Below are positions 7,806-31,951 of a stretch of 43,439 nt of DNA, piece by piece. Location: the NCBI GenBank assembly GCA_947631015.1, contig CANRJS010000017.1, positions 1 to 43,439 on the forward strand, read 5' to 3'. Every line of letters starts with the position of its first letter. The first letter of the stretch is position 1. The position numbers were made by a program, and so were the translations under genes. The DNA is from an uncultured Clostridia bacterium (lineage in GTDB: Bacteria > Bacillota > Clostridia > Oscillospirales > JAAYOS01). Below the pieces are notes generated by a model. It was given only the letters and a program-made list of their open reading frames with translations. It searched no databases and was not told where the DNA came from.

Positions 7806-7831
7806 CTCCGTGGATTAGGATACGGGGCAAT

Positions 7832-7950
7832 GAAAACGCCCCCGTGTTCACACACAGGGGCGCAGAAATGCTTTTACATTCAGGCGCTTCCTCGGCGGGA
7901 CGGCCGAACCGTTTGCGACCCGAGGGTCTCCTGCTGTCTGCGGAACACTA
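7832..7950 (-). ncRNA. L10 leader (ribosomal protein autoregulatory 5' UTR) with attenuator hairpin
   Basis: Between the promoter at 7955-7983 and rplJ the transcript holds the recognisable L10-leader landmarks CGCAGACAGCAGGAGAC and CCGCCGAGGAAGCGCC. After them comes a G/C-rich hairpin (CGCCCCTGTGTG / CACGGGGGCG, 7835-7862) running into TTTTCATT, which would act as a transcription attenuator. In this family excess L10(L12)4 complex binds the leader and lowers expression of its own operon. The exact attenuation switch is inferred. Confidence 0.85.
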
Positions 7951-7954
7951 CGTT

Positions 7955-7983
7955 ATTATAGCGCCTCCGGAGACTTATGTCAA
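7955..7983 (-). promoter_or_regulatory. Consensus sigma-A promoter for rplJ-rplL
   Basis: On the minus strand, TTGACA (7983-7978), exactly 17 bases, TATAAT (7960-7955). Both boxes are perfect consensus. Transcription should begin near 7948, giving a leader of about 140 bases, and it makes rplJL independent of the upstream rplKA unit. Confidence 0.9.
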
Positions 7984-12155: not shown

Positions 12156-14075
12156 TTATTTCTTGAGGTATCTGTCGAACCACTTCAGCATCTCGTCGAG
12201 GCGGGAAATGCGGTTCTTCGGCTTGCCGGAGCGGCTGAGCTCGTGATTCTCGTCCTTGAAGATGCAGAGCCGCGCGTCCACGCCGTTCTGCCGTATCGCG
12301 TTGTACATCTGTATGCCCTCCGCGAACCAGCAGCGGAAATCGTGGTCGGAGCAGATGAATATAGTCGGGGTGACGCACTTATCCGCGTACTTCAGCGGCG
12401 AGTGATCCCAGAACACATCCGCGCCCTGCCACGGGTCGGTCTCCATCTGAGTGAGGTTGTGGTAGTGGCCGATGTCGGTCGTGAGGCACTTCGTGAAGTA
12501 GTTTGAGATGGAGCGCTGACTTGCGGCGGCGGCGAAGCGGTTCGTGTGGCCGATAATCCAGTTCGTCATGAAGCCGCCGTAGCTCCCGCCGAGGACGCCG
12601 AGCCGCTTTTCGTCAAGCTCGGGCTCGCGGGCGAGGACCTCGTCCGTAAACTCCATCACGTCGCGGTAGTCTATCGTGCCGAGCTTGCCGGTGATGTCGG
12701 CAAACTCGCTTGTCCGTCCGCTCGACCCGCGCGGGTTGCAGAAGAAGACGTAGTACCCCTGCGCCGCGTACGCCTGCATCTCGTGGTTGTAGGCGACGTT
12801 GTATGCGGCCTTCGGACCTCCGTGTATCTCGAGAAGGCCGGGGTACGAGCCGCCCTTCTCCCAACCGGCGGGCTTTATGACAAAGCCCTCTATCTCCACG
12901 CCGTCCGAGTTCATGAAGGTGAAGCGCTCGGCGGGGATTATCTCGTGAGTTTCGACATATCCGTCGTTTATCGCGCTTATCCACTCGACCGCGCCGCCCT
13001 CGACCCTTCCGAACTCCTGCATCCCGTCCGGACGGTCGCCGGTGAGGACTATCTCACCGTCCTTCACGTCAAAGCCGGTGACGCTGCCGGGCGTCGAGAG
13101 CGAGTACACTATCTCGCCCGCGCTGTTCATCGCGCCTATCCGGCTGTGGCTCCACTCGTCGTGGCAGAAGTAGAGGAGGTTCCCGTCCCGCACGGTCTGG
13201 TATATGGCGAGGTCGTGCGGGAACTTCGTCATTTCCCGCGTCGTGAGGTCGTAGCGGTAGAGGTCGGAGGCGGAGTGGCTGTCCTTGCAGGGATTTATGC
13301 CGATAAGAAGCGTGTCGTCGTCCCAGAATGCCGCCTTGTCCACGCAGGAGGTGAGCGGGTCGATGAGCGTCTCGGTCTTTCCGGAGGCTATGTCGCAGAC
13401 GAACAGCCCGCCCTGACGGCGCTTCGCACCGACAAGCTCAGAGCCGGTAAAGGCGATCTTTGTCTTGTCGGGGGAGATGTCCGCGCCGCCGGCCTCAAAG
13501 AGAGGAGAGGTGAAGCGGGTGAGCTTCCCGGACGCGCGGTCGAATATCGAGAGCGCGGGACGCTTCTTGTTCGTGACGCCCATGCCGTTTATCCAGAACG
13601 GTATCTCGTCAAAGACCTGATACCCCTTGCGCTTAGGACGCTCGTCCTCGGGCAGGGCGTGCTCGAAGGAGCGGACGAGGAACAGTCCGTCCTTTATCGG
13701 GGTGAGGGAACCGGCGGTCGGAAGGTCGAAGTAAAACTCCGCCTCGCCTCCGTCCGGGAATATGCGGAAAAGGTGGGTAACGGGGTCCTCCGGCTTCGCA
13801 CCCTCGCGCTTCGGCGCGCCGGGACGGCCGGAGGCAAACACGACAGCGCCGGTCTCCTCCTCCCAGTACGCGAAGCGGTCGGAGCCGGAGCTTGTGAGAC
13901 GCTTCGTCCTGCCCGTTGCCTTCTCGTAGAGCCAGAGGCAGGTCTTGTAGCCGTTCTTCTCCTCGTCCGCGCTGTTCTCGGTGAAGACGGCGTACCTGCC
14001 GTCCGGCGACCACTGCGCACCGGAGACCTGCGAGTATTCGTATATATCGCTGTATGCTACGCTCTTTTTAGTCAT
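12156..14075 (-). CDS. S9-family serine peptidase (acylaminoacyl-peptidase type), second of a tandem pair
   Basis: 639-residue cytoplasmic serine peptidase of the prolyl oligopeptidase family: an N-terminal beta-propeller (about 1-370; VSGAQWSPDGRYAVF, TRLTSSGSDRFAYW, ADISPDKTKIAFTG) that filters short peptides, then an alpha/beta-hydrolase domain. The nucleophile is Ser~498 in LGGSYGGFMTNW, the acid Asp~579 in SDHDFRCW and the base His~611 in ENHELSRSGKP, so it should be active. No signal peptide. Its ATG overlaps the stop of the upstream S9 gene (ATGA), so the two are coupled. The two proteins share long runs, including the GGPKAAYN/GGPRTAFG oxyanion region. Confidence 0.93.
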   Translation of the reverse strand: MTKKSVAYSDIYEYSQVSGAQWSPDGRYAVFTENSADEEKNGYKTCLWLYEKATGRTKRLTSSGSDRFAYWEEETGAVVFASGRPGAPKREGAKPEDPVTHLFRIFPDGGEAEFYFDLPTAGSLTPIKDGLFLVRSFEHALPEDERPKRKGYQVFDEIPFWINGMGVTNKKRPALSIFDRASGKLTRFTSPLFEAGGADISPDKTKIAFTGSELVGAKRRQGGLFVCDIASGKTETLIDPLTSCVDKAAFWDDDTLLIGINPCKDSHSASDLYRYDLTTREMTKFPHDLAIYQTVRDGNLLYFCHDEWSHSRIGAMNSAGEIVYSLSTPGSVTGFDVKDGEIVLTGDRPDGMQEFGRVEGGAVEWISAINDGYVETHEIIPAERFTFMNSDGVEIEGFVIKPAGWEKGGSYPGLLEIHGGPKAAYNVAYNHEMQAYAAQGYYVFFCNPRGSSGRTSEFADITGKLGTIDYRDVMEFTDEVLAREPELDEKRLGVLGGSYGGFMTNWIIGHTNRFAAAASQRSISNYFTKCLTTDIGHYHNLTQMETDPWQGADVFWDHSPLKYADKCVTPTIFICSDHDFRCWFAEGIQMYNAIRQNGVDARLCIFKDENHELSRSGKPKNRISRLDEMLKWFDRYLKK

Positions 14076-16063
14076 TTCTCCTGCGCCTCCTCGGGATGAA
14101 GATACTTTTCAAACCACTCCCGCATCTCCTCGATGCGGCTTACGCGGTTATTCGGCTTGCCGGAGCGGCTGAGCTCGTGGTTCTCCCCCTCAAAGAGGCA
14201 GAGGCGGCTCTCAACGCCGTGGAAGCGGAGCGCCGTGAACATCTGAATGCCCTCGACCATCCAGCAGCGGAAGTCGTTGTCCGAGTGGATGAAAAGCGTC
14301 GGGGTCTTCACCTTATCCGCGTACTTGAGCGGGGAGATGTCCCAGAGATAGTCCCAGTTTTCGTGGGTGGAGGTGCGGTGGTTCATGCGGGTGAAGTTGA
14401 AGCCGATGTCGCTTGTGAACTCGAAGGAGGTCCAGTTCGCGATGGAGCGCTGACTCGCGGCGGCGGCGAAGCGGTCGGTGTGACCGATTATCCAGTTTGT
14501 CATGTAGCCGCCGTAGCTTCCGCCGAGGACGCCGAGCCGCGCCGGATCTATCGACTTCTCGCAGGCGAGGGCGCTGTCGACAAACGCCATGATGTCCTCG
14601 TAGTCTATCGTGCCGTACCTGCCCCAGATGTCCGCGAACGCGTCGCCGCGTCCGTCCGAGCCGCGCGGGTTGCAGAACAGGACGAAGTAACCGGTGTTTG
14701 CGAAGACCTGCATCTCGTGGAAGAACGCCTCGCCGAACGCGGTGCGCGGCCCTCCGTGTATCTCGAGAAGCGCCGGATATTTCTTTCCCGCCTCGAAGCC
14801 CGCAGGGTGGAGCATCCAGCCGTCTATCAGGAGCCCGTCCGCGTTCGTGAAGGGTATGTACTCCGGCGCGACGGTCTCGTACTCGTCGAGCGGCGCGGAG
14901 AAGTCGGTTATCCGCCTGCTGTCTATATACAGCTCGGGTGTGCGGACGGGGGAGAGCTCGATCGCGGCGATGCTGCCGCCGTCGCAGACGTCAAACGAAT
15001 CTATGCCGCAGCGCTCGGAGAGGACGGTCTCGATACCGCCGTCCGAAGTGACTTTCTTTAAGGAGTTCTTGTAGCGGTCGAGGCTCACGAAGTACAGCTC
15101 GTCGCCCACCATTTTGGTCTTCATGCCGCCGCCGAGGCGCGCGTCGCTTCCGACGGCGCCCACCGGCACGACCGCGCCGTCGCCGAGCGGACGGAGCTCT
15201 TTTGTCGCAATGTCGAGAGTGTGGAGCGTGCCGCTCTCGGTGTCGCCGTACTTTGCACCGTCGGTGCAGGTGAGGAGGACGTCGCCGCAGTCGCGAAGCT
15301 CGGCAAAGCCGAGCTTGAGACGTCCTGGCTCGATAAGCGTCTCGGTCGACCCGGAGGCTATGCCATAGAGGTAGAGGCCGGATATCCTCATATCGCGGAC
15401 GCGTCCCTGCGCCGAGCCGGTGTAGACTATCTTTCCGTTCTTCGCGGATGCGGAGCGGACGTCGAAGCCGTCCGGAGTCACCTTGGTTTCCTTGCCGCTC
15501 TCGCGGTCGTAGAGAAAGAGGGCGCTCGTCATACCGGCGGTAAATCCGCTGCCGTTTGACCAGAACGGCGTGTCCTCTATCCCACGGTAAGCGGGGGAGT
15601 TGTACTGTTCGAGCGCCTTGTCGAAGCCATCGCTCCCCGCCTCGGGGTACGCCTCGTCCGTGCGGGCGGTAAAGAGGTAAAGGCTGCCCTCGACGTGGCG
15701 GAGCCCGGATGCCGGATGTTCGAGCGTGAAAGCCTTCACCGCCTCGCCGCCGTCCGGGGATATCTCGTAGTAGGATGTGAACTTCTCGCCCTTGCCCGAG
15801 CGCTTTTTGTCCTCCGGCGTGCGGGAGGCGGGAAAGAGGATCTTCCCCTCCGGCGTCCAGCAGAAGGACCCGCCGTCGCCCATGGCGGTGAGCCTGCGCG
15901 GGGCGGAGCCGTTCTCACTGAGCCAGATGTCGCTCGAATAGCCGGTGCGCTCACCGTTCACGTTCTTCACGACGAACGCGGTATAGCGTCCGTCCGGCGA
16001 GAAGCGCGGCTCGGAGGGAAACTTCAGCTCATAGAGAGTTTCCGCCGTTATCTTTTTCTTCAT
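14072..16063 (-). CDS. S9-family serine peptidase (acylaminoacyl-peptidase type), first of a tandem pair
   Basis: About 663 residues with the same plan as its neighbour: propeller repeats (PRFSPDGRYTAFVVKN, PRRLTAMGDGGSFCWTPEGKILF), then a hydrolase domain with Ser~516 in LGGSYGGYMTNW, Asp~597 in HSDNDFRCW and His~629 in ENHELSRSG. It probably releases N-terminal or acylated residues from oligopeptides in the cytoplasm. Starts at 16075 (GTG), 16072 (ATG) and 16063 (ATG) are in frame. The GAAAGGGTGATG stretch is a proper SD only for the ATG at 16063, so I use it. It follows ruvX by 36 bases and may share its transcript. Confidence 0.92.
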   Translation of the reverse strand: MKKKITAETLYELKFPSEPRFSPDGRYTAFVVKNVNGERTGYSSDIWLSENGSAPRRLTAMGDGGSFCWTPEGKILFPASRTPEDKKRSGKGEKFTSYYEISPDGGEAVKAFTLEHPASGLRHVEGSLYLFTARTDEAYPEAGSDGFDKALEQYNSPAYRGIEDTPFWSNGSGFTAGMTSALFLYDRESGKETKVTPDGFDVRSASAKNGKIVYTGSAQGRVRDMRISGLYLYGIASGSTETLIEPGRLKLGFAELRDCGDVLLTCTDGAKYGDTESGTLHTLDIATKELRPLGDGAVVPVGAVGSDARLGGGMKTKMVGDELYFVSLDRYKNSLKKVTSDGGIETVLSERCGIDSFDVCDGGSIAAIELSPVRTPELYIDSRRITDFSAPLDEYETVAPEYIPFTNADGLLIDGWMLHPAGFEAGKKYPALLEIHGGPRTAFGEAFFHEMQVFANTGYFVLFCNPRGSDGRGDAFADIWGRYGTIDYEDIMAFVDSALACEKSIDPARLGVLGGSYGGYMTNWIIGHTDRFAAAASQRSIANWTSFEFTSDIGFNFTRMNHRTSTHENWDYLWDISPLKYADKVKTPTLFIHSDNDFRCWMVEGIQMFTALRFHGVESRLCLFEGENHELSRSGKPNNRVSRIEEMREWFEKYLHPEEAQEK

Positions 16064-16099
16064 TTTCCGCATCACCCTTTCAAAACGATATTTTATACG

Positions 16100-16581: not shown

Positions 16582-16864
16582 TAAAGCCCCATCCGAATAT
16601 GAGATGGGGCATTTGACGCCGGAGGAACCGCGCGGCGGAGCCTGCGCGGTGCTGTTTCCGTACCCTGTCGTGGGGGTGCTTTAAATCCTGCACAACAAAT
16701 GCAGGTGGGTCCGCTCTCACCGGATTTATCGCTTCCAACTTCCGAGATCCGCCGAAGCGGGTCGGGAGGCCTGCGAACGGCCGGTGAAGGCCGCGGTCCC
16801 GTTTCAAAGAGATGTGGGTTTAAAGAAACCCGCCACGAGCAGGGCAGAAGGGAATATCCCCTCC
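16582..16864 (-). ncRNA. Independent small RNA gene, 6S-like
   Basis: A minus-strand transcription unit with its own promoter (16871-16899) and a strong terminator (16582-16610, GCCCCATC/GATGGGGC then TTTAATT) but no coding frame. The predicted fold is rod-like. A long-range closing stem pairs 16836-16848 (TGCCCTG-C-TCGTGG) with 16661-16675 (CCACGA-CAGGGTA). A central open region has a GGGTTT/AAACCC hairpin on the 5' strand and CCTGCA/TGCAGG on the 3' strand. A terminal arm pairs TCACCGG with CCGGTGA and ends in CCGC-TTCG-GCGG. A closing stem, bubble and 3'-strand hairpin are the architecture of 6S RNA, the RNA polymerase holoenzyme decoy. The primary sequence match is from memory only; another structured RNA is possible. 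Confidence 0.6.
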
Positions 16865-17855: not shown

Positions 17856-18392
17856 ATGGCTGTACGCAATAGCTTTTCGATAAAGAACATACTTCTCTCG
17901 CTGCTTTTCCTCGTGCTTGCGATATTCCTGCCGGGGCTGGTGGCGCGCGTGCCGGGACTTGCGCCGGTACTGCTCGTGATGCACATACCGATCTATCTCT
18001 GCGGATTTGTCTGCGGCGCGCCGCTCGGGTTTGCGATAGGGATGGTCGCGCCGGTGCTCTCGTCGGTCATACTCGGCTCGCCCGCGCTCTTTCCGGAGGG
18101 CGTTGCGATGATGTTCGAGCTCGCGTTCTACGGACTGCTCGCCGGCGCGCTCTACGACACGTTCCGCCGGTCGATGGGTTCGCATCGGGTGGGCGCAAGC
18201 TACCTCGCTCTGCTTGTCGCGATGCTCGGGGGAAGGATAGCATGGGGAGCGGCGATGCTCGTGATAGCCCTCTGCACGCCGGTTACGTTCTCCTGGAGCG
18301 AATTTATCTACGGAGCGTTCACCGGCGAGGCGGCGGCGATAGTCCTGCACATCCTGATAGTGCCAGGGCTCGTCGCGCAGACGAGAAAGTAA
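17856..18392 (+). CDS. ECF transporter S component (substrate-binding membrane subunit)
   Basis: 178 residues with about five or six membrane helices, the size and look of energy-coupling-factor S components, which capture a vitamin and dock on a shared EcfA/A'/T module. Typical features: a glycine-rich segment IPIYLCGFVCGAPLGFAIGMVAPVLSSVILG and a later helix MMFELAFYGLLAGALYDTFRR. The vitamin cannot be told from sequence. EcfA and EcfT are not in the window, so it must share a module encoded elsewhere. SD AAGAGG precedes the ATG. A structured repeat (18394) begins one base after the stop codon. Confidence 0.75.
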   Translation: MAVRNSFSIKNILLSLLFLVLAIFLPGLVARVPGLAPVLLVMHIPIYLCGFVCGAPLGFAIGMVAPVLSSVILGSPALFPEGVAMMFELAFYGLLAGALYDTFRRSMGSHRVGASYLALLVAMLGGRIAWGAAMLVIALCTPVTFSWSEFIYGAFTGEAAAIVLHILIVPGLVAQTRK

Positions 18393-18393
18393 G

Positions 18394-18658
18394 TCGCGGG
18401 AAATCGCAGGAGCGGGCTTTTAAGCCCGCTCCTTTACCAATTTCCCGCGAGACCGCCAGACAGAGCAAAGCTCTGCCGGCGGCAAACGCTACGCTCTGCT
18501 CCTCGCACCTGCGGCGCTTCGAAGCGCGCTCCGCGCAAGGTATTTTCGGCGACGTACACGCCGCCGAAAATGATTTAACTCTATTTCGCCGCTTATGCGG
18601 CGAAACTCTGCGAGGCTTTCAGTCAGTACGTCGGCGCTCCGCGCCGACGTACTGACTG
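18394..18658 (+). repeat. 3'-end structured element, copy A
   Basis: The outer stem TCGCGGGAAAT (18394-18404) pairs with ATTTCCCGCGA (18440-18450). Inside is hairpin 18409-18432 and the shared TACCAATTT. Hairpin 2 covers about 18453-18482. A variable part with further hairpins follows (TTTTCGGCG-type at about 18540-18572; TTTCGCCGC/GCGGCGAAA). The tag ACTCTGCGAGGCT is at 18605-18617. An 18-bp perfect stem-loop (18620-18658) closes the block. It starts one base past the stop of the S component gene, on its strand. 18659-18804 is gene-free and holds more inverted repeats. Confidence 0.75.
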
Positions 18659-18804
18659 TCAACGTAACCTGCGGCTGCGCCGCGCCATAACGTGCTCAAA
18701 GTCGGGCAATATTCACGGAGCGAATATTGCTAGCGAGGGCTGTAAAATGTCGGATGCAGAATTGGTTCGAGCCCTCGCAGTTCGCGCGAAGTTTGCGGGT
18801 AAGA

Positions 18805-19023
18805 AGCCTCGCAGAGTTCGCGCGAAGCGCGAATAGATTTCAATATGTTTTTTCCGACGGCGTGTACGTCGGAAAAAGCTCTTTACGCGGAGCGTGCGTC
18901 GATTTTCCGCCGAAGGCGGAAAACTCGGCGCGAAGCGGAGCGAGGCCGTCGGCAGGGCTATGCCCTATCCGACGGCTTCGCGGCAAATTGGTAAGCGAGC
19001 GCAGCGCCCGCCATTTGCCGCGA
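18805..19023 (-). repeat. 3'-end structured element, copy B
   Basis: Read on the minus strand: outer stem TCGCGGCAAAT (19023-19013) with ATTTGCCGCGA (18988-18978), inner hairpin, TTACCAATTT, hairpin 2 at 18976-18945 (GCCGTCGG...CCGACGGC), hairpin-rich middle (TTTTCCGCC/GGCGGAAAA, TTTTTCCGACG-type), and the tag ACTCTGCGAGGCT at 18817-18805. It begins five bases after the stop of the DMT transporter gene and shares its orientation, so copies A and B point at each other. Confidence 0.75.
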
Positions 19024-19028
19024 AAACA

Positions 19029-19469
19029 CTATTTCCACTTGAACAGCAGTACGCCGCCGACCATCATCGCCGTGGCGAGGTACTTCGTCCAGCCGAAGGG
19101 CGTCTGCTCCTGCCCGAACCACCCGAACGCGTCTATCGCCGCCGCGACGAGCAGCTGCGAGATAAGAATGACCGAGATGGCGACGGTGGGGGAGAGCTCC
19201 TTTATCCCGAGCATCACCGTCACGGTGATGACTATGCCGAGCACGCCGCCGAGGCGGCTCACAAGCGTCGCCTCGCCGAAGCCGCTCCAGCCCGCGCCGC
19301 CCGAGGCGTTTCCCGCGACGAGCAGGGCGATAAGCGACAGCACGAACGCCGTTCCCTGCACAAACACGTTTGACTCGAAAAGACCTATCTTCTCAGAGAG
19401 GCGGGTGTTGAACACCCCCTGAAAGCTCATCGCCGCGCCGGCGATGATGCTGAATATTATCCCCGCCAT
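19029..19469 (-). CDS. DMT-superfamily transporter, YdcZ/DUF606 type
   Basis: 146 residues and about five membrane helices: the half-size, single-domain form of the drug/metabolite transporter superfamily (DUF606). The start GIIFSIIAGAAMSFQGVFNTRLSEKIG and the end QTPFGWTKYLATAMMVGGVLLFKWK are typical; these proteins probably pair to form a full exporter. The substrate is unknown. GGGAGG lies nine bases before the ATG. It stands alone between the element pair and a divergent membrane-protein gene. Confidence 0.82.
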   Translation of the reverse strand: MAGIIFSIIAGAAMSFQGVFNTRLSEKIGLFESNVFVQGTAFVLSLIALLVAGNASGGAGWSGFGEATLVSRLGGVLGIVITVTVMLGIKELSPTVAISVILISQLLVAAAIDAFGWFGQEQTPFGWTKYLATAMMVGGVLLFKWK

Positions 19470-22295: not shown

Positions 22296-22371
22296 GGGAG
22301 CATAGCTCAGCTGGGAGAGCACATGCCTTACAAGCATGGGGTCACAGGTTCGAGCCCTGTTGTTCCCACCA
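22296..22371 (+). tRNA. tRNA-Val (TAC)
   Basis: 76 bases including an encoded CCA. The acceptor GGGAGCA pairs with TGTTCCC; the anticodon loop is CTTACAA with anticodon TAC; the T loop is GGTTCGAGCC. It reads GUA/GUN valine codons. Confidence 0.95.
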
Positions 22372-22375
22372 TTGT

Positions 22376-22452
22376 GGCCCGGTAGAACAGTTGGTTAGTT
22401 CGCCAGCCTGTCACGCTGGAGGTCGTGGGTTCGAGTCCCATCCGGGTCGCCA
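22376..22452 (+). tRNA. tRNA-Asp (GTC)
   Basis: 77 bases with an encoded CCA. The acceptor GGCCCGG pairs with CCGGGTC; the anticodon stem-loop is CCAGC-CTGTCAC-GCTGG with anticodon GTC; the discriminator is G, as expected for Asp. Confidence 0.95.
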
Positions 22453-22456
22453 ATTT

Positions 22457-22532
22457 GCCTCTGTAGCTCAGCTGGTAGAGCAGAGGACTGAAAATCCTCG
22501 TGTCGGTGGTTCGACTCCGCCCGGAGGCACCA
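22457..22532 (+). tRNA. tRNA-Phe (GAA)
   Basis: 76 bases with an encoded CCA. The acceptor GCCTCTG pairs with CGGAGGC; the anticodon loop is CTGAAAA with anticodon GAA; the discriminator is A. Confidence 0.95.
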
Positions 22533-22559
22533 ATGGGGCGGGCGCACAGCCCGCCCCAT
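22533..22559 (+). terminator. Hairpin between tRNA-Phe and tRNA-Cys
   Basis: Perfect 11-bp stem (ATGGGGCGGGC and its complement) followed by ACCTGTCTTTTT. It could partly terminate the transcript or serve as a processing site before the last tRNA. Confidence 0.5.
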
Positions 22560-22572
22560 ACCTGTCTTTTTC

Positions 22573-22646
22573 GGCGCCATAGCCAAGTGGTAAGGCAGAG
22601 GCCTGCAAAGCCTTTACCCCCAGTTCGAGTCTGGGTGGCGCCTCCA
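22573..22646 (+). tRNA. tRNA-Cys (GCA)
   Basis: 74 bases with an encoded CCA. The acceptor GGCGCCA pairs with TGGCGCC; the anticodon loop is CTGCAAA with anticodon GCA; the discriminator is T (U73), the identity base for Cys. Confidence 0.95.
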
Positions 22647-26394: not shown

Positions 26395-26698
26395 CTTGCG
26401 CGCATTCCTTTGGCCCGTGCTCCCTTGATCAGGTATCGGGGACGCACGGGTCGATTTGCATTTTTTGGACGGTTTTCCGAAAACAGGTGTATTTTCGGGA
26501 CGCAAACGTGGAAATATCTTTTCGGGAACAAAACGCCGAAATGTCGCAAATAAACGCTGAAATTCATCCGTAAGAAAAAATCCGGCCCATTTTCGGCGGT
26601 ATCTGTATCCGATTTTTCTTTCGGGCGTGGGAAACATAGATTTGCGCGCGCAGCCGCCTCGCGGCGGCGGGAACGCGCGTGCGATTTTTCGGAAAGGG
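26395..26698. other. Intergenic stretch before spoIVB
   Basis: About 300 AT-richer bases with no gene I can support. A CCCGTGC/GCACGGG hairpin at about 26419-26451 followed by TTGCATTTTTT could end the TraX transcript. No clear sigma-A promoter is visible, and sigma-G/F boxes for spoIVB could not be assigned with confidence. Confidence 0.45.
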
Positions 26699-27778
26699 GT
26701 GACATTTATCGGACGAAAATGGCTGAAACAGGCGCTGACGGCGTTTGTTCTCGTGCTTTTGCTGAGCGCGGCCGAGGTGCTTCCGGCGGCGTCCGCCGCG
26801 TACTTCCCGCGCGAAGCGACGGCGGCGGCCGCGACCGGGACGCGGTACCTCGTGCCGGTCGGGCGCGCCGTGGGGATGAAGATAGTGTCCGACGGTATCC
26901 TCGTCGTGGGCATGACCGACGTGACCTGCGCCGGAGCGACCACCTCGCCTGCGCGCTCCGCCGGGCTGAAGGAGGGCGACCTGATAATCTCGGTCGACTC
27001 ACGCAAGGTCGGCAGCACTCAGGAACTCAAGGAGGCGCTGAACGACGCGCTCGTGGGCAGCGGCGAGGTAGAGATAACCTACGAGCGGGACGGCAGCGAG
27101 CATATCGCGGTCCTGAAGCCGGTCCTCAGCGATGAGGACGGCACCTACAAGATAGGCGCGTGGGTGCGCGACAGCATGGCGGGCATCGGCACGCTGACCT
27201 TCTACGACCCGTCGAGCGGGGTCTTCGGCGCGCTCGGACACGGGATAAACGACGTGACGACCTCCGAGCTCATGCCTGTCGCGAGCGGAACGCTCATCCG
27301 CTCGACAATATCCTCCGTGAGAAAGGGCGAGAGCGGCGCACCGGGCGAGCTCTCCGGCAGCTTTGACCTCTCGGACGAGTTCGGCGAGCTCTACGCGAAC
27401 ACTGACCGGGGCGTATTCGGCCGGGCGAACGCCGAGGTGCTCAGCGTGGACGTCTCTGCGGCTCTGCCGGCGGCGCGCGCGGACGAGGTGAAGGAGGGTC
27501 CGGCCGTGATACTCTCGAACGTCTCCGGCGACAAAGTGGACGAGTACGAAATAGAGATAAAGCAGGTCTCGCGTAACAGCGCGCAATCGCCGCGCGATTT
27601 GGTGATCGAGGTGACCGACGAGGAACTGTTGGCCGCGACCGGCGGCATAGTTCAGGGAATGAGCGGAAGCCCGATAATCCAGAACGGCAAGCTCGTCGGC
27701 GCGGTGACGCACGTCCTCGTCGGCGACCCTAAGAGAGGATACGGCATACTGATAGAGAATATGCTGGACGCGCAATAG
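26699..27778 (+). CDS. spoIVB: SpoIVB-type serine peptidase (sporulation)
   Basis: About 359 residues. In sporulating Bacillota SpoIVB is secreted from the forespore and cleaves SpoIVFA to start pro-sigma-K processing. Seen: a signal or anchor sequence (KWLKQALTAFVLVLLLSAAEVLPAASA), the start VPVGRAVGMKIVSDGILVVG, a PDZ domain (about 60-140; SAGLKEGDLIISVDSRKVGST) and the SpoIVB peptidase domain with His~181 in GALGHGINDV and Ser~324 in GIVQGMSGSPIIQNGKLVGAVTHV. The start is uncertain: GTG at 26699 abuts the SD GGAAAGGGG, and a GTG at 26627 is also in frame. The usual neighbour spo0A is absent downstream; the structured element C follows instead. Confidence 0.88.
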   Translation: MTFIGRKWLKQALTAFVLVLLLSAAEVLPAASAAYFPREATAAAATGTRYLVPVGRAVGMKIVSDGILVVGMTDVTCAGATTSPARSAGLKEGDLIISVDSRKVGSTQELKEALNDALVGSGEVEITYERDGSEHIAVLKPVLSDEDGTYKIGAWVRDSMAGIGTLTFYDPSSGVFGALGHGINDVTTSELMPVASGTLIRSTISSVRKGESGAPGELSGSFDLSDEFGELYANTDRGVFGRANAEVLSVDVSAALPAARADEVKEGPAVILSNVSGDKVDEYEIEIKQVSRNSAQSPRDLVIEVTDEELLAATGGIVQGMSGSPIIQNGKLVGAVTHVLVGDPKRGYGILIENMLDAQ

Positions 27779-27782
27779 ACTT

Positions 27783-27961
27783 TCGCTGCAAATCGCGGGC
27801 GCGGATTTCATCCGCGCCCTTACCAATTTGCAGCGAAGCCGTCGGATAGGGCATAGCCCTACCGACGGCAACGCTCCGCTACGCAAGTCCCGCGCGGTCA
27901 GCGACCGCGTGGGATTCGGCGAAACTCTGCGAGGCTGCAAAAGGCAAAACTCTGCGAGGCT
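27783..27961 (+). repeat. 3'-end structured element, copy C
   Basis: The outer stem TCGCTGCAAAT (27783-27793) pairs with ATTTGCAGCGA (27826-27836). The inner hairpin is 27797-27819. TTACCAATTT is present. Hairpin 2 is 27838-27869. Then AACGCTCCGCT, a short variable part, and the tag ACTCTGCGAGGCT twice (27924-27936, 27949-27961). It starts five bases after the spoIVB stop, on the same strand. Two outer-stem positions differ from copies A and D, and both partners have changed with them. Confidence 0.78.
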
Positions 27962-27966
27962 AGCAT

Positions 27967-27998
27967 AAGCCCCGCCGGGAAAACTCCCGGCGGGGCTT
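27967..27998 (+). terminator. Hairpin terminator after element C
   Basis: AAGCCCCGCCGGGA stem with its complement followed by GACTTTCTT, five bases past the element's end tag. It probably closes the spoIVB transcript. Confidence 0.65.
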
Positions 27999-28545: not shown

Positions 28546-31500
28546 ATGCAGGCAAACCTTGAATGGCTGCGCGACGTCGGCGTGTACGAGGTCGGGCGGC
28601 TTCCCGCACACTCAGACCACATCGCGCAGGCGCCGGACGACAAGCCCGGCTTTTCCTCGCTCCGCCAGAGCCTCAACGGCTCGTGGCGCTTCAGGTATTC
28701 CGAACGGCCGGAGGAGCGTCCCATGGACTTCTACGAGGAGGACTACGACAGCTCGGACTGGGACAGCATCACCGTCCCGGGACACATCCAGATGCAGGGT
28801 TACGGCGAGCCGCAGTACGTCAACACCACCTATCCGTGGGACGGACACGAGAAGCTGTTCCCGCCGGAGGTTCCGGAGCACAACCCGGTCGGCAGCTACA
28901 TACTCAAATTTACCCCCACGCGGCGCGGGATGCGCGCCCGCGTGAGCTTCCAGGGTGTGGACAACGCGTTCTTCGTATGGCTGAACGGCGAGCTCCTCGG
29001 TTACAGCGAGGACAGCTGCACCCCCGCCGAGTTTGACGTCACCGGTCTCCTCCGCGACGGAGAGAACACCCTCGCCGTCGAGGTGTACCGCTTCTCGACG
29101 GCGAGCTGGCTCGAGGACCAGGACTTCTTCCGTTTCAGCGGGATATTCCGCGACGTGTACCTCGAATTTTTGCCCGAGCTGCACGTCGAGGACATACATG
29201 TCATCACCGACGTGGACGACGGCTTCGAGAGTGCCGTCCTGCGCGCGAAGCTCCGCATGTCCGGCGCGGCGGAGGGCGGCAGGGTCTATGCCGCGCTCGC
29301 GGCCTCCTGCGGACGTCCCGCGGGAGAGGCGGAAGCGGAGGTCGAGGACGGCGAGTGCCGCTTCGAGATACCGGTCGAGAACGTCGAGCTGTGGAGCGCG
29401 GAGGATCCAAACCTCTATATGCTTACACTCATAGTGTCGGACGCGAACGGAGTCACCGAGAAGGTGCGCCAGCCGGTGGGCTTCCGCCGCTTCGAGATAG
29501 TGGACAGGATAATGACCCTCAACGGGAAACGCATAGTCTTCAACGGCACGAACCGCCACGACTTTGACGCGAGCTGCGGCCGCGCTGCGACCGACGAGCA
29601 CCGCCGCCGCGACCTCGTCACGATGAAGCGGAACAACATCAACGCCGTGCGCACCTCGCACTATCCGAACGGCTCCGGCCTCTACCGCATGACCGACGAG
29701 CTCGGCCTCTACGTCATCGACGAGACGAACCTTGAGACCCACGGCACCTGGGGCTACCCAGTCGGCACGCAGGAGGAGCGGGCGGCGAGCCTCGTGCCCG
29801 GTTCGAAGCTCGAGTGGCTGCCGGCCTGCCTTGACCGTGCGCGCTCGATGTTCGAGCGGGACAAGAACCATCCGTCGGTGCTGATATGGAGCTGCGGCAA
29901 TGAGAGCTTCGGCGGCGAGGTCATATATCAGATGAGCGAATACTTCCGCTCGGTAGACGCGACGCGCCTCGTCCACTACGAGGGAGTCGTCCACGACCCG
30001 GAGTGGCTCAAGACCACCGACATCTACTCGCAGATGTACGCCCACCCGGACACCGTCGTGAAGTACCTCGAGAGCGACCCGGAGCGGCCGTACATCCTCT
30101 GCGAGTACATGCACTCGATGGGCAACTCCACCGGCGGCATGAAGCACTACACCGAGCTTGCCGAGAAGTATCCGATGTATCAGGGCGGATTTATCTGGGA
30201 CTTCATAGATCAGGCTGTCATCACCGAGAGCGAGAGCGGACGCGTCCGCCTCGGCTACGGCGGGGACAACGGCGAGAGGCCGCACGACGGGACGTTCTCC
30301 GGCAACGGTATAGTCTTTGCGGACGGCACCGAGACCCCGAAGCTCCAGGAGGTAAAGAACCTCTACTCGGGCGTGAAGATAACCCCGGACGAGAAGGGCG
30401 TCACGATAAAGAACAAGAATCTGTTCATCAATACCGACCGCTACGCCGCGAAGTGGACGCTGAAGCGAAACGGCGTCGAGGAGGCGTTCGGGTCGTTTGA
30501 CCAGAGCGTCGCGCCGGGCGGGGAGGAGTACTACCTCCTGCCGGTCACGGCGGAGGGCGAGGGAGAGTTCACCCTTGACGTGTCGCTCACGCTCCGCGCT
30601 GCCACCGCGTGGGCGGAGGCCGGCTACGAGATTGCCCACGGCGAGCACGTCTGGGGCAGCTACGTCCCGGAGGAGTGCCCCGGTGAGGCGAAGGCCGTGC
30701 TAGGGCGCGAGTGGATGGGCGTGGACGTCGGCGAGGCGCACGCCATGTTCTCGATAAACGGCGGCCTCGAGGGCTTCCGCGCGAACGGACACGAGTATTT
30801 GAAGGACAAGGTGCGCCCGACCTTCTGGCGCGCCATGCTCGACAACGACCTCGGCGCGAAGAATCAGATGACGCAGGCGTTCTGGCAGACGGCTACGCAG
30901 AACGGCGGCATTTTCACCTTCTTCGGAAGGGGAGACGCGCCTGCGTTCGACGAAAAGAACGCGGCTGTGAGCTACGGCTATACGCTTTCGATGCCGCTTC
31001 GCGCCCTCGGTGCCAAGACCCCCGAGGAGAAGATGAAGATATTGATGGAGGAGCGGATAACCGCCCGCATCGAGTACCGCGCGGAGGGCGGAAAGCTCCA
31101 CTGTGCGCTGATATGGGACGGCAGGGAGGGTCTTCCCGAGATACCGAACTTCGCCCTCCGCTTCAAGCTGCCGTGTACGCTCGACCGCGTGAGGTTCTAC
31201 GGCATGGGCCCGGAGGAGAACTACATCGACCGCGCGGAGGGCGCGCGCCTCGGCAGATACGAGTACGACGTGTGCGACAACCTCACCCCGTACCTGCACC
31301 CGCAGGAATGCGGCAACCGCATCGGCGTCCGCTGGGCGGAGGTCACCGACGAATCTGGCCACGGCCTGCGCTTCGAGATGGAGGACGCGCCGTTCGAGTT
31401 CGGCGCGCTGCACTACTCGAGCGAGCAGCTCGAGGCGGCGGACCACATCGACGAGCTGCCCGAGCCGGAGTACACGTTCGTGACCGTCTCCGCGCGTCAG

Positions 31501-31605
31501 CAGGGCGTCGGCGGACAGGACAGCTGGATGAGCCGCCCGTTTGCGCCGTACCTCACTCCGTCGGACAAGCCGATGACGCTGAGGTTCACGGTAGAAGCAA
31601 TATAA
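28546..31605 (+). CDS. lacZ: Glycoside hydrolase family 2 beta-galactosidase (LacZ type)
   Basis: 1019 residues, cytoplasmic, the full five-domain LacZ plan: jelly-roll sugar-binding domain (about 30-210; [27 protein letters not shown]), two immunoglobulin-like domains flanking the catalytic barrel, and the C-terminal beta-sandwich (about 730-1019; [34 protein letters not shown]). The acid/base is Glu453 in WSCGNES and the nucleophile Glu520 in [11 protein letters not shown], both intact. It hydrolyses lactose or other terminal beta-galactosides. AGGGAGG precedes the ATG. There is no adjacent permease or LacI-type regulator. Structured element D begins five bases after its stop codon. Confidence 0.95.
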   Translation: [1019 protein letters not shown]

Positions 31606-31609
31606 AATT

Positions 31610-31951
31610 TCGCGGGAAATCGCGCGGGCTTTGCCCGCTTACCAATTTCCCGCGAAGCCGCCGGACAGAGCGGAGCTCTGCCGGCGGCAACGCTCCGCTT
31701 CGCAATTCCCAAACGCTCCTTTGGAGCGTTTGGGAGCCCTTCTGATTGAAATGCTCGGGGCAAATGAATTGCCCCTGCGCGAAGTTGGCGGCTTTGCCGC
31801 CAACTTCAACCGCACGAACCGGCGCGGGAGCGCCTGCGGCGCCCTCCGGCTCGTGCAATGTAGGGCATTCGGCGCTGTGCGCCGAATGCTGATGCGCCCG
31901 GTAGAAAGTGCCGGTGCGTAACGAGTTGAGGGGCACATTCTCTGCGAGGCT
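31610..31951 (+). repeat. 3'-end structured element, copy D
   Basis: The outer stem TCGCGGGAAAT (31610-31620) pairs with ATTTCCCGCGA (31645-31655). The inner hairpin is 31624-31638. TTACCAATTT is present. Hairpin 2 is 31657-31688, then AACGCTCCGCT. The variable part is the longest of the four and contains at least four more perfect hairpins: CCCAAACGCTCC/GGAGCGTTTGGG (~31709-31735), GGGGCAA/TTGCCCC (~31756-31774), GTTGGCGGC/GCCGCCAAC (~31784-31804) and GCATTCGGCGC/GCGCCGAATGC (~31865-31889). The end tag CTCTGCGAGGCT is at 31940-31951. Confidence 0.78.

Follow-up and report, generated by a model that had tools for sequence, protein, structure and literature searches.

Repeat Copies and Genes in the Window

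The window (the whole stretch of 43,439 nt analyzed here) holds four copies of a head hairpin, A (18394–18450, plus strand), B (18977–19024, minus strand), C (27782–27837, plus strand), and D (31609–31656, plus strand), and the genes upstream of them encode an ECF-type transporter component, a YdcZ-like exporter, SpoIVB, and a beta-galactosidase. The head of copy A (M1), with the outer stem TCGCGGGAAAT/ATTTCCCGCGA and the inner cassette AGGAGCGGGC, starts one base past the TAA stop of the gene at 17856–18392 and is followed on the same strand by hairpin 2 (M2; 18451–18483) and by the remaining modules (18484–18616), namely, M3, M4 (loop CGTACACGCCG), and the last hairpin, ending in the motif CTCTGCGAGGC (18606–18616); the region 18389–18661 has a fold z of −10.4. 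Copy B is convergent to copy A: its head lies four bases past the stop codon of the YdcZ-like gene on the minus strand (19029–19469), and hairpin 2 (GCCGTCGG...CCGACGGC; 18945–18976) and the remaining modules (18806–18944) continue on the minus strand through to the end motif at 18806–18816.

Copy C is the element described in an earlier, sequence-only reading of this DNA. Its head (outer stem TTCGCTGCAAAT/ATTTGCAGCGAA, inner part GGGCGCGGAT) is found three bases past the stop of the SpoIVB gene (ORF 26627–27778); hairpin 2 (GCCGTCGGATAGGGC...GCCCTACCGACGGC; 27838–27869) and a shortened tail (27870–27960) with one hairpin and two end motifs (27925–27935 and 27950–27960) follow on the plus strand, and a separate G+C-rich hairpin lies downstream of the tail, at approximately 27968–27997. 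The head of copy D, also on the plus strand, begins three bases past the beta-galactosidase stop (ORF 28546–31605) and is followed by hairpin 2 (GCCGCCGG...CCGGCGGC; 31657–31688) and a tail (31689–31950) with nested gamma (from 31737) and beta (from 31890) repeats and the end motif at 31940–31950. The composites are larger than the stretch first taken for the whole element, as they extend to CTCTGCGAGGC, which closes them at 18616, 18806, 27935/27960, and 31950.

Other features of the window are listed here for completeness. Two arrays of other hairpin-rich repeats (5–322 and 1975–2424), about 2 kb apart, are 82–97% alike, and one of them contains the long palindrome TTAAGGGAGAGGGCGGAGCCCTCTCCCTTAA; an array of 24-base tandem repeats occupies the contig end (43157–43437). 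Two adjacent related open frames on the minus strand (12156–14075 and 14072–16075; 639 and 667 aa) look like a tandem gene duplication. The RNA genes, four tRNAs (22296–22643), 6S RNA (16651–16853), and the L10 leader (7822–7961), are ordinary.

Architecture and Folding

In a full composite, hairpins follow one another in the order head, hairpin 2, M3, M4, and last hairpin, and the end motif closes the series. The head spans 48–60 nt, contains an asymmetric internal loop CGC/TTACCA, and is preceded by variable bases (ACT, AAT, AAA, GAT, GCT, and others). The window heads fold into the predicted shapes (z from −5 to −8), and their outer stems, TCGCGGG (18394 and 31609), TCGCGGC (18977), and TCGCTGC (27782), have matching partner bases throughout, as the sequence-only reading had reported. 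Its description of the inner hairpins as perfect or near perfect fits all four window copies but does not extend to the commonest inner cassette, GCGCTCGCTTCGCTCGC, which folds poorly. Similarly, the replacement of GCCGCCGG by GCCGTCGG in hairpin 2 was seen as described, whereas hairpin 2 of copy A turned out to carry two A–C mismatches (ACCGCCAG/CCGGCGGC). The run ACCAATTT, previously considered unpaired and invariant, is neither: its ATTT pairs with AAAT of the left arm, so that the free part is TTACCA only, and in the wider family, ATTC/GAAT is found in 18 copies out of 111.

Other repeats, named beta, gamma, delta, and head 2, are nested within the modules or stand in for them. The beta repeat (...GGGACGTCGGCGC...TGATGCGCCCGGTAGA...GGGCGCATT), when found inside another hairpin, takes the place of one arm of the host hairpin rather than merely splitting it (L131 vs. 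L072, L064 vs. L024, L151 vs. L021, and window positions 31890–31939). In the gamma repeat (window positions 31737–31840 compared to the L122 ortholog), the entire stem of a small hairpin differs, GGGGCAAATGAATTGCCCC vs. GGCGGAAATGAATTCCGCC, while its core AATGAATT is constant and the surrounding layout is the same in both orthologs.

Copy Number and Distribution

The head pattern TTACCAATTTNNNGCGA, with at most one mismatch allowed, has 39 matches in the 1.89 Mb genome (43 contigs) and none in the reversed control. Three congeneric genomes (G001, G002, and G004) yield 40–50 matches each to a similar pattern; no matches were found in the fourth congener, G003, or in 54 other genomes, except one isolated match in a genome from another family. 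The repeat is genus-specific and present in four out of five congeners. Named records containing it are Clostridia MAGs from rabbit gut (Lapin bins). Across 263 kb of this genome, we counted 29 clusters of repeats that are 60 bp or longer, with a combined length of approximately 9 kb. A search of IMG/VR with one long exact pattern gave no match, and hence no phage carrier was found.

Placement Behind Stop Codons

The repeat occupies intergenic space on the 3′ side of genes, usually in the sense orientation and close to the stop. In 55% of 107 copies, the head starts 0–12 nt past an in-frame sense stop codon, compared to 1.7% of random positions (stops were counted if the frame they ended was open over 120 codons or more), and the most common distance is 3 nt. 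Antisense stops near the other side of the head are rare (nine out of 109), and the remaining copies come after terminator-like hairpins or other modules. REPs of Escherichia coli located at most 15 nt from stop codons have been reported to stall ribosomes (PMC12306157), and thus the stop-proximal placement alone is not new.

Covariation in the Stems

The outer stems form 38 distinct rows, and 98.3% of the cells in them are paired, compared to 24–51% when the partners are slid and at most 90.7% when they are shuffled. We applied our own R-scape-like test to 56 distinct rows of the head and hairpin 2, with a tree from FastTree and a Fitch-based null. Two out of 26 stem pairs, 6–25 and 8–23, covary significantly, compared to none of the non-pairs, on a tree that is imperfect owing to recombination, and stem pairs take all of the top eight ranks among the 1770 column pairs. 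The covariation is real and exceeds the phylogenetic null; the check proposed in the sequence-only reading, significant covariation with phylogeny and more copies included, came out positive.

In 111 copies, the pair at position 8 is C:G in 59 and G:C in 44, with no G–G or C–C intermediate. A structural RNA evolving by compensation is expected to tolerate G–U on the transcribed strand. The outer stem has four G–U and four A–C cells out of 1221, and hairpin 2 has 16 G–U vs. 24 A–C, or 13 vs. 11 when its first pair, which is often broken, is omitted. As G–U pairs are rare and no more common than A–C, there is no sign of selection at the RNA level. For comparison, tRNAs on the same contigs have 28 G–U out of 344 pairs (8%), and the repeat stems, 0.3–0.9%.

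Exchange of Hairpins at Orthologous Sites

All four close species have the element at the same places as the window copies, with its modules swapped; in G004, the element of the SpoIVB site is visible only on a contig end. Opposite nearly every head, close relatives have another head or another hairpin. We matched 41 pairs of orthologous heads via unique upstream flanks (84–98% identity). Both the stem and the cassette differ in 18 of these pairs and both agree in 17, with only the stem differing in four and only the cassette in two (Fisher's test, 6e-6). Counted by site, the stem changed on both sides at 12 sites, and the inner cassette was also replaced at all 12; it changed on one side only at four sites, and the cassette was kept at all four (Fisher's test, p = 5.5e-4; sites counted by hand). 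No two-sided change within an otherwise unchanged head was seen in the 41 orthologous pairs. Since two-sided changes always come with cassette replacement, the paired changes track the exchange of whole pre-formed hairpins. Hence the paired changes noticed in the sequence-only reading are real, but the inference drawn from them fails. That structure is conserved more than sequence, which had been regarded as the mark of a functional RNA or a hairpin DNA substrate, fits a hairpin DNA element, but does not amount here to evidence of a functional RNA.

For about half of the replaced heads, the bases separating the head from the stop codon are different too, and these junction differences hint at replaced tracts that can extend beyond the repeat. 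Clean empty sites are hardly found among close relatives. G003 has no element at the two sites where both its flanks were comparable, and it is too distant for analysis of junctions (approximately 70–81% identity in matched flanks).

One orthologous pair (L002 vs. L180) records a different kind of change. The site reads AAAT-TGGTAA-AGGAGCGGGC-AAA-GCCCGCTCCT-TTACCA-ATTT in G000 and AAAT-CGC-AGGAGCGGGC-TTT-GCCCGCTCCT-TTACCA-ATTT in G002, and the changed stretch, CGC-AGGAGCGGGC-TTT to TGGTAA-AGGAGCGGGC-AAA, is the exact reverse complement of the opposite arm and loop. The opposite arm was copied and the loop inverted, which is a template-switch footprint; it is the single case with a clear ortholog. 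Other copies are palindromized likewise, and the same stem frequently occurs with either loop of a pair, e.g., TTC/GAA. As described for RNA hairpins (PMC8794818), a single template-switching event changes several base pairs at once and inverts the loop.

Possible Explanations

Taking all this into account, we regard the element as probably a genus-specific mosaic palindromic repeat of the BIME/BOX-like type, whose pairing changes are mostly a by-product of copying at the DNA level. Its sites are shared between species, hairpins at them are swapped entire, and heads follow sense stops; an arm re-templated from its partner was caught once. Pairing would persist because new variants are taken over as entire hairpins from other copies; template switching during replication would re-template one arm from the other, keeping the arms matched. 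The stop-proximal hairpin, if transcribed, might perhaps affect translation termination or mRNA decay, by analogy with what has been reported for the E. coli REPs; alternatively, the space behind a stop codon may simply be where insertions do least harm. Several observations sit uneasily with this explanation. Neither an enzyme nor a donor copy has been identified for the exchange step, and homologous gene conversion does not usually leave exchange tracts that are short and end cleanly at hairpin boundaries. Roughly half of the replaced heads also have different stop-to-head bases; conversion within the repeat leaves this unexplained, and re-insertion might explain it. Finally, thermodynamics alone could leave very strong stems without G–U pairs.

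A functional cis-acting RNA of the 3′ UTR, that is, a termination, mRNA-stability, or protein-binding hairpin with pairing selected via compensatory mutation, seems unlikely to us. It would account for the strong sense-strand placement near stops, the very stable folds, the two significantly covarying pairs, and the constancy of TTACCA and of the CGTACACGCCG loop, and it could draw on the ribosome stalling reported for E. coli REPs that lie no more than 15 nt from a stop (PMC12306157). However, G–U pairs are not in excess over A–C, every two-sided change came with a replaced cassette, the common cassette GCTCGCTTCGCTCGC folds poorly, and the congener G003 lacks the element although orthologous genes were found. 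Separate compensatory events within a kept structure, with wobble tolerated, are what a structured RNA should leave, and this is not the pattern observed. No Rfam family matched at the gathering threshold, with only weak, chance-level matches present, and a known Rfam RNA over the element was rejected on this ground. An intrinsic terminator was rejected too, as hairpin 2 directly follows the head and there is no T run.

We are similarly doubtful that a site-specific transposase uses the element as a hairpin DNA substrate and inserts it just behind stop codons, with differing heads representing independent insertions. The junction differences next to stop codons (roughly half of the replaced heads) and the nesting of the beta and gamma repeats inside hairpins agree with insertion, and the same compensatory pattern is seen in REPINs (PMC3116915). 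Yet the Y1/RAYT transposase (PF01797) is absent from G000–G004, while it is present in five out of 14 control genomes, and searches for reverse transcriptases (group II intron, DGR), IS110, and TnpB gave no match above the cut-off in the five congeneric genomes; these candidate drivers were rejected, as they were not found in the genus. Nor did the pattern searched in IMG/VR reveal a phage carrier, and, with hardly any empty site in close relatives, no insertion or target duplication was caught. Dispersed single sites speak against an integron attC site.

The lack of matches above the cut-off to Y1, reverse transcriptase, IS110, and TnpB in G000–G004 is in itself unusual beside so many interspersed repeats. 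It is conceivable, if improbable, that the repeat belongs to a hairpin-exchange system not yet described, in which the stems of dispersed repeats fixed behind stop codons are swapped whole, time and again, for those of other copies by an enzyme or a replication process outside the known hairpin-acting transposases. Chance or shared ancestry, i.e., an accidental match among four related copies, is scarcely credible: the copies are not independent, since a small number of stem alleles recur many times, but the 98.3% pairing exceeds that of slid or shuffled partners and the phylogeny-aware null is exceeded as well.

The repeat is a counter-example to the notion that base changes occurring in pairs are proof of a functional RNA, as here significant covariation arose largely from hairpin swaps and arm-templated copying. 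Repeat-derived RNA candidates in bacteria should be compared at orthologous sites and checked for the balance of G–U and A–C before they are called structural RNAs.

Comparison With Known Repeats

The REP and BIME elements of E. coli, Pseudomonas, and Stenotrophomonas are interspersed extragenic palindromes forming mosaics, genus- or species-specific and often located near stop codons (PMC3733652, PMC2817692, PMC12306157). Alternative complementary stem residues are on record for REP subfamilies, and the GTAG/CGTC REP families are listed in phyla other than that of Clostridia (PMC3733652). The present repeat differs from REPs in having no GTAG/CGTC tag, no RAYT in the genus, and an asymmetric internal loop in the head; moreover, G–U pairs, often found in REPs (PMC3733652), are rare in it. 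Compensatory stem changes have been reported to be common in REPINs (PMC3116915), which share with our repeat the hairpin with such changes; unlike REPINs, it is not composed of two inverted REPs and has no RAYT. The template-switch compensatory mutation (PMC8794818) leaves the same footprint as observed here, but there it is a mutational process described for rRNA genes, not an element.

We searched the literature for similar mosaic palindromes in Clostridia and retrieved nothing specific. The repeat adds such a family, with rapid turnover of hairpins at fixed stop-proximal sites and none of the expected transposases found. No sequence relation to the E. coli BIME units was seen; in the broad sense, like BIMEs, it consists of interspersed extragenic mosaics of palindromic units. 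The streptococcal BOX, RUP, and SPRITE repeats are modular composites with a varying number of modules in Gram-positive bacteria, and some of them provide the stop codon of the preceding gene (PMC3049150). Compared by the features given there, our repeat has another sequence and another module plan, all its modules are hairpins, and its stems are exchanged; like BOX, it has ordered modules whose combination and number change at orthologous sites. Thus, since it lacks both the GTAG/CGTC tag and RAYT and behaves as a BIME/BOX mosaic, it is best filed not as a REP but as a new BIME/BOX-like family of mosaic palindromic repeats in Clostridia.
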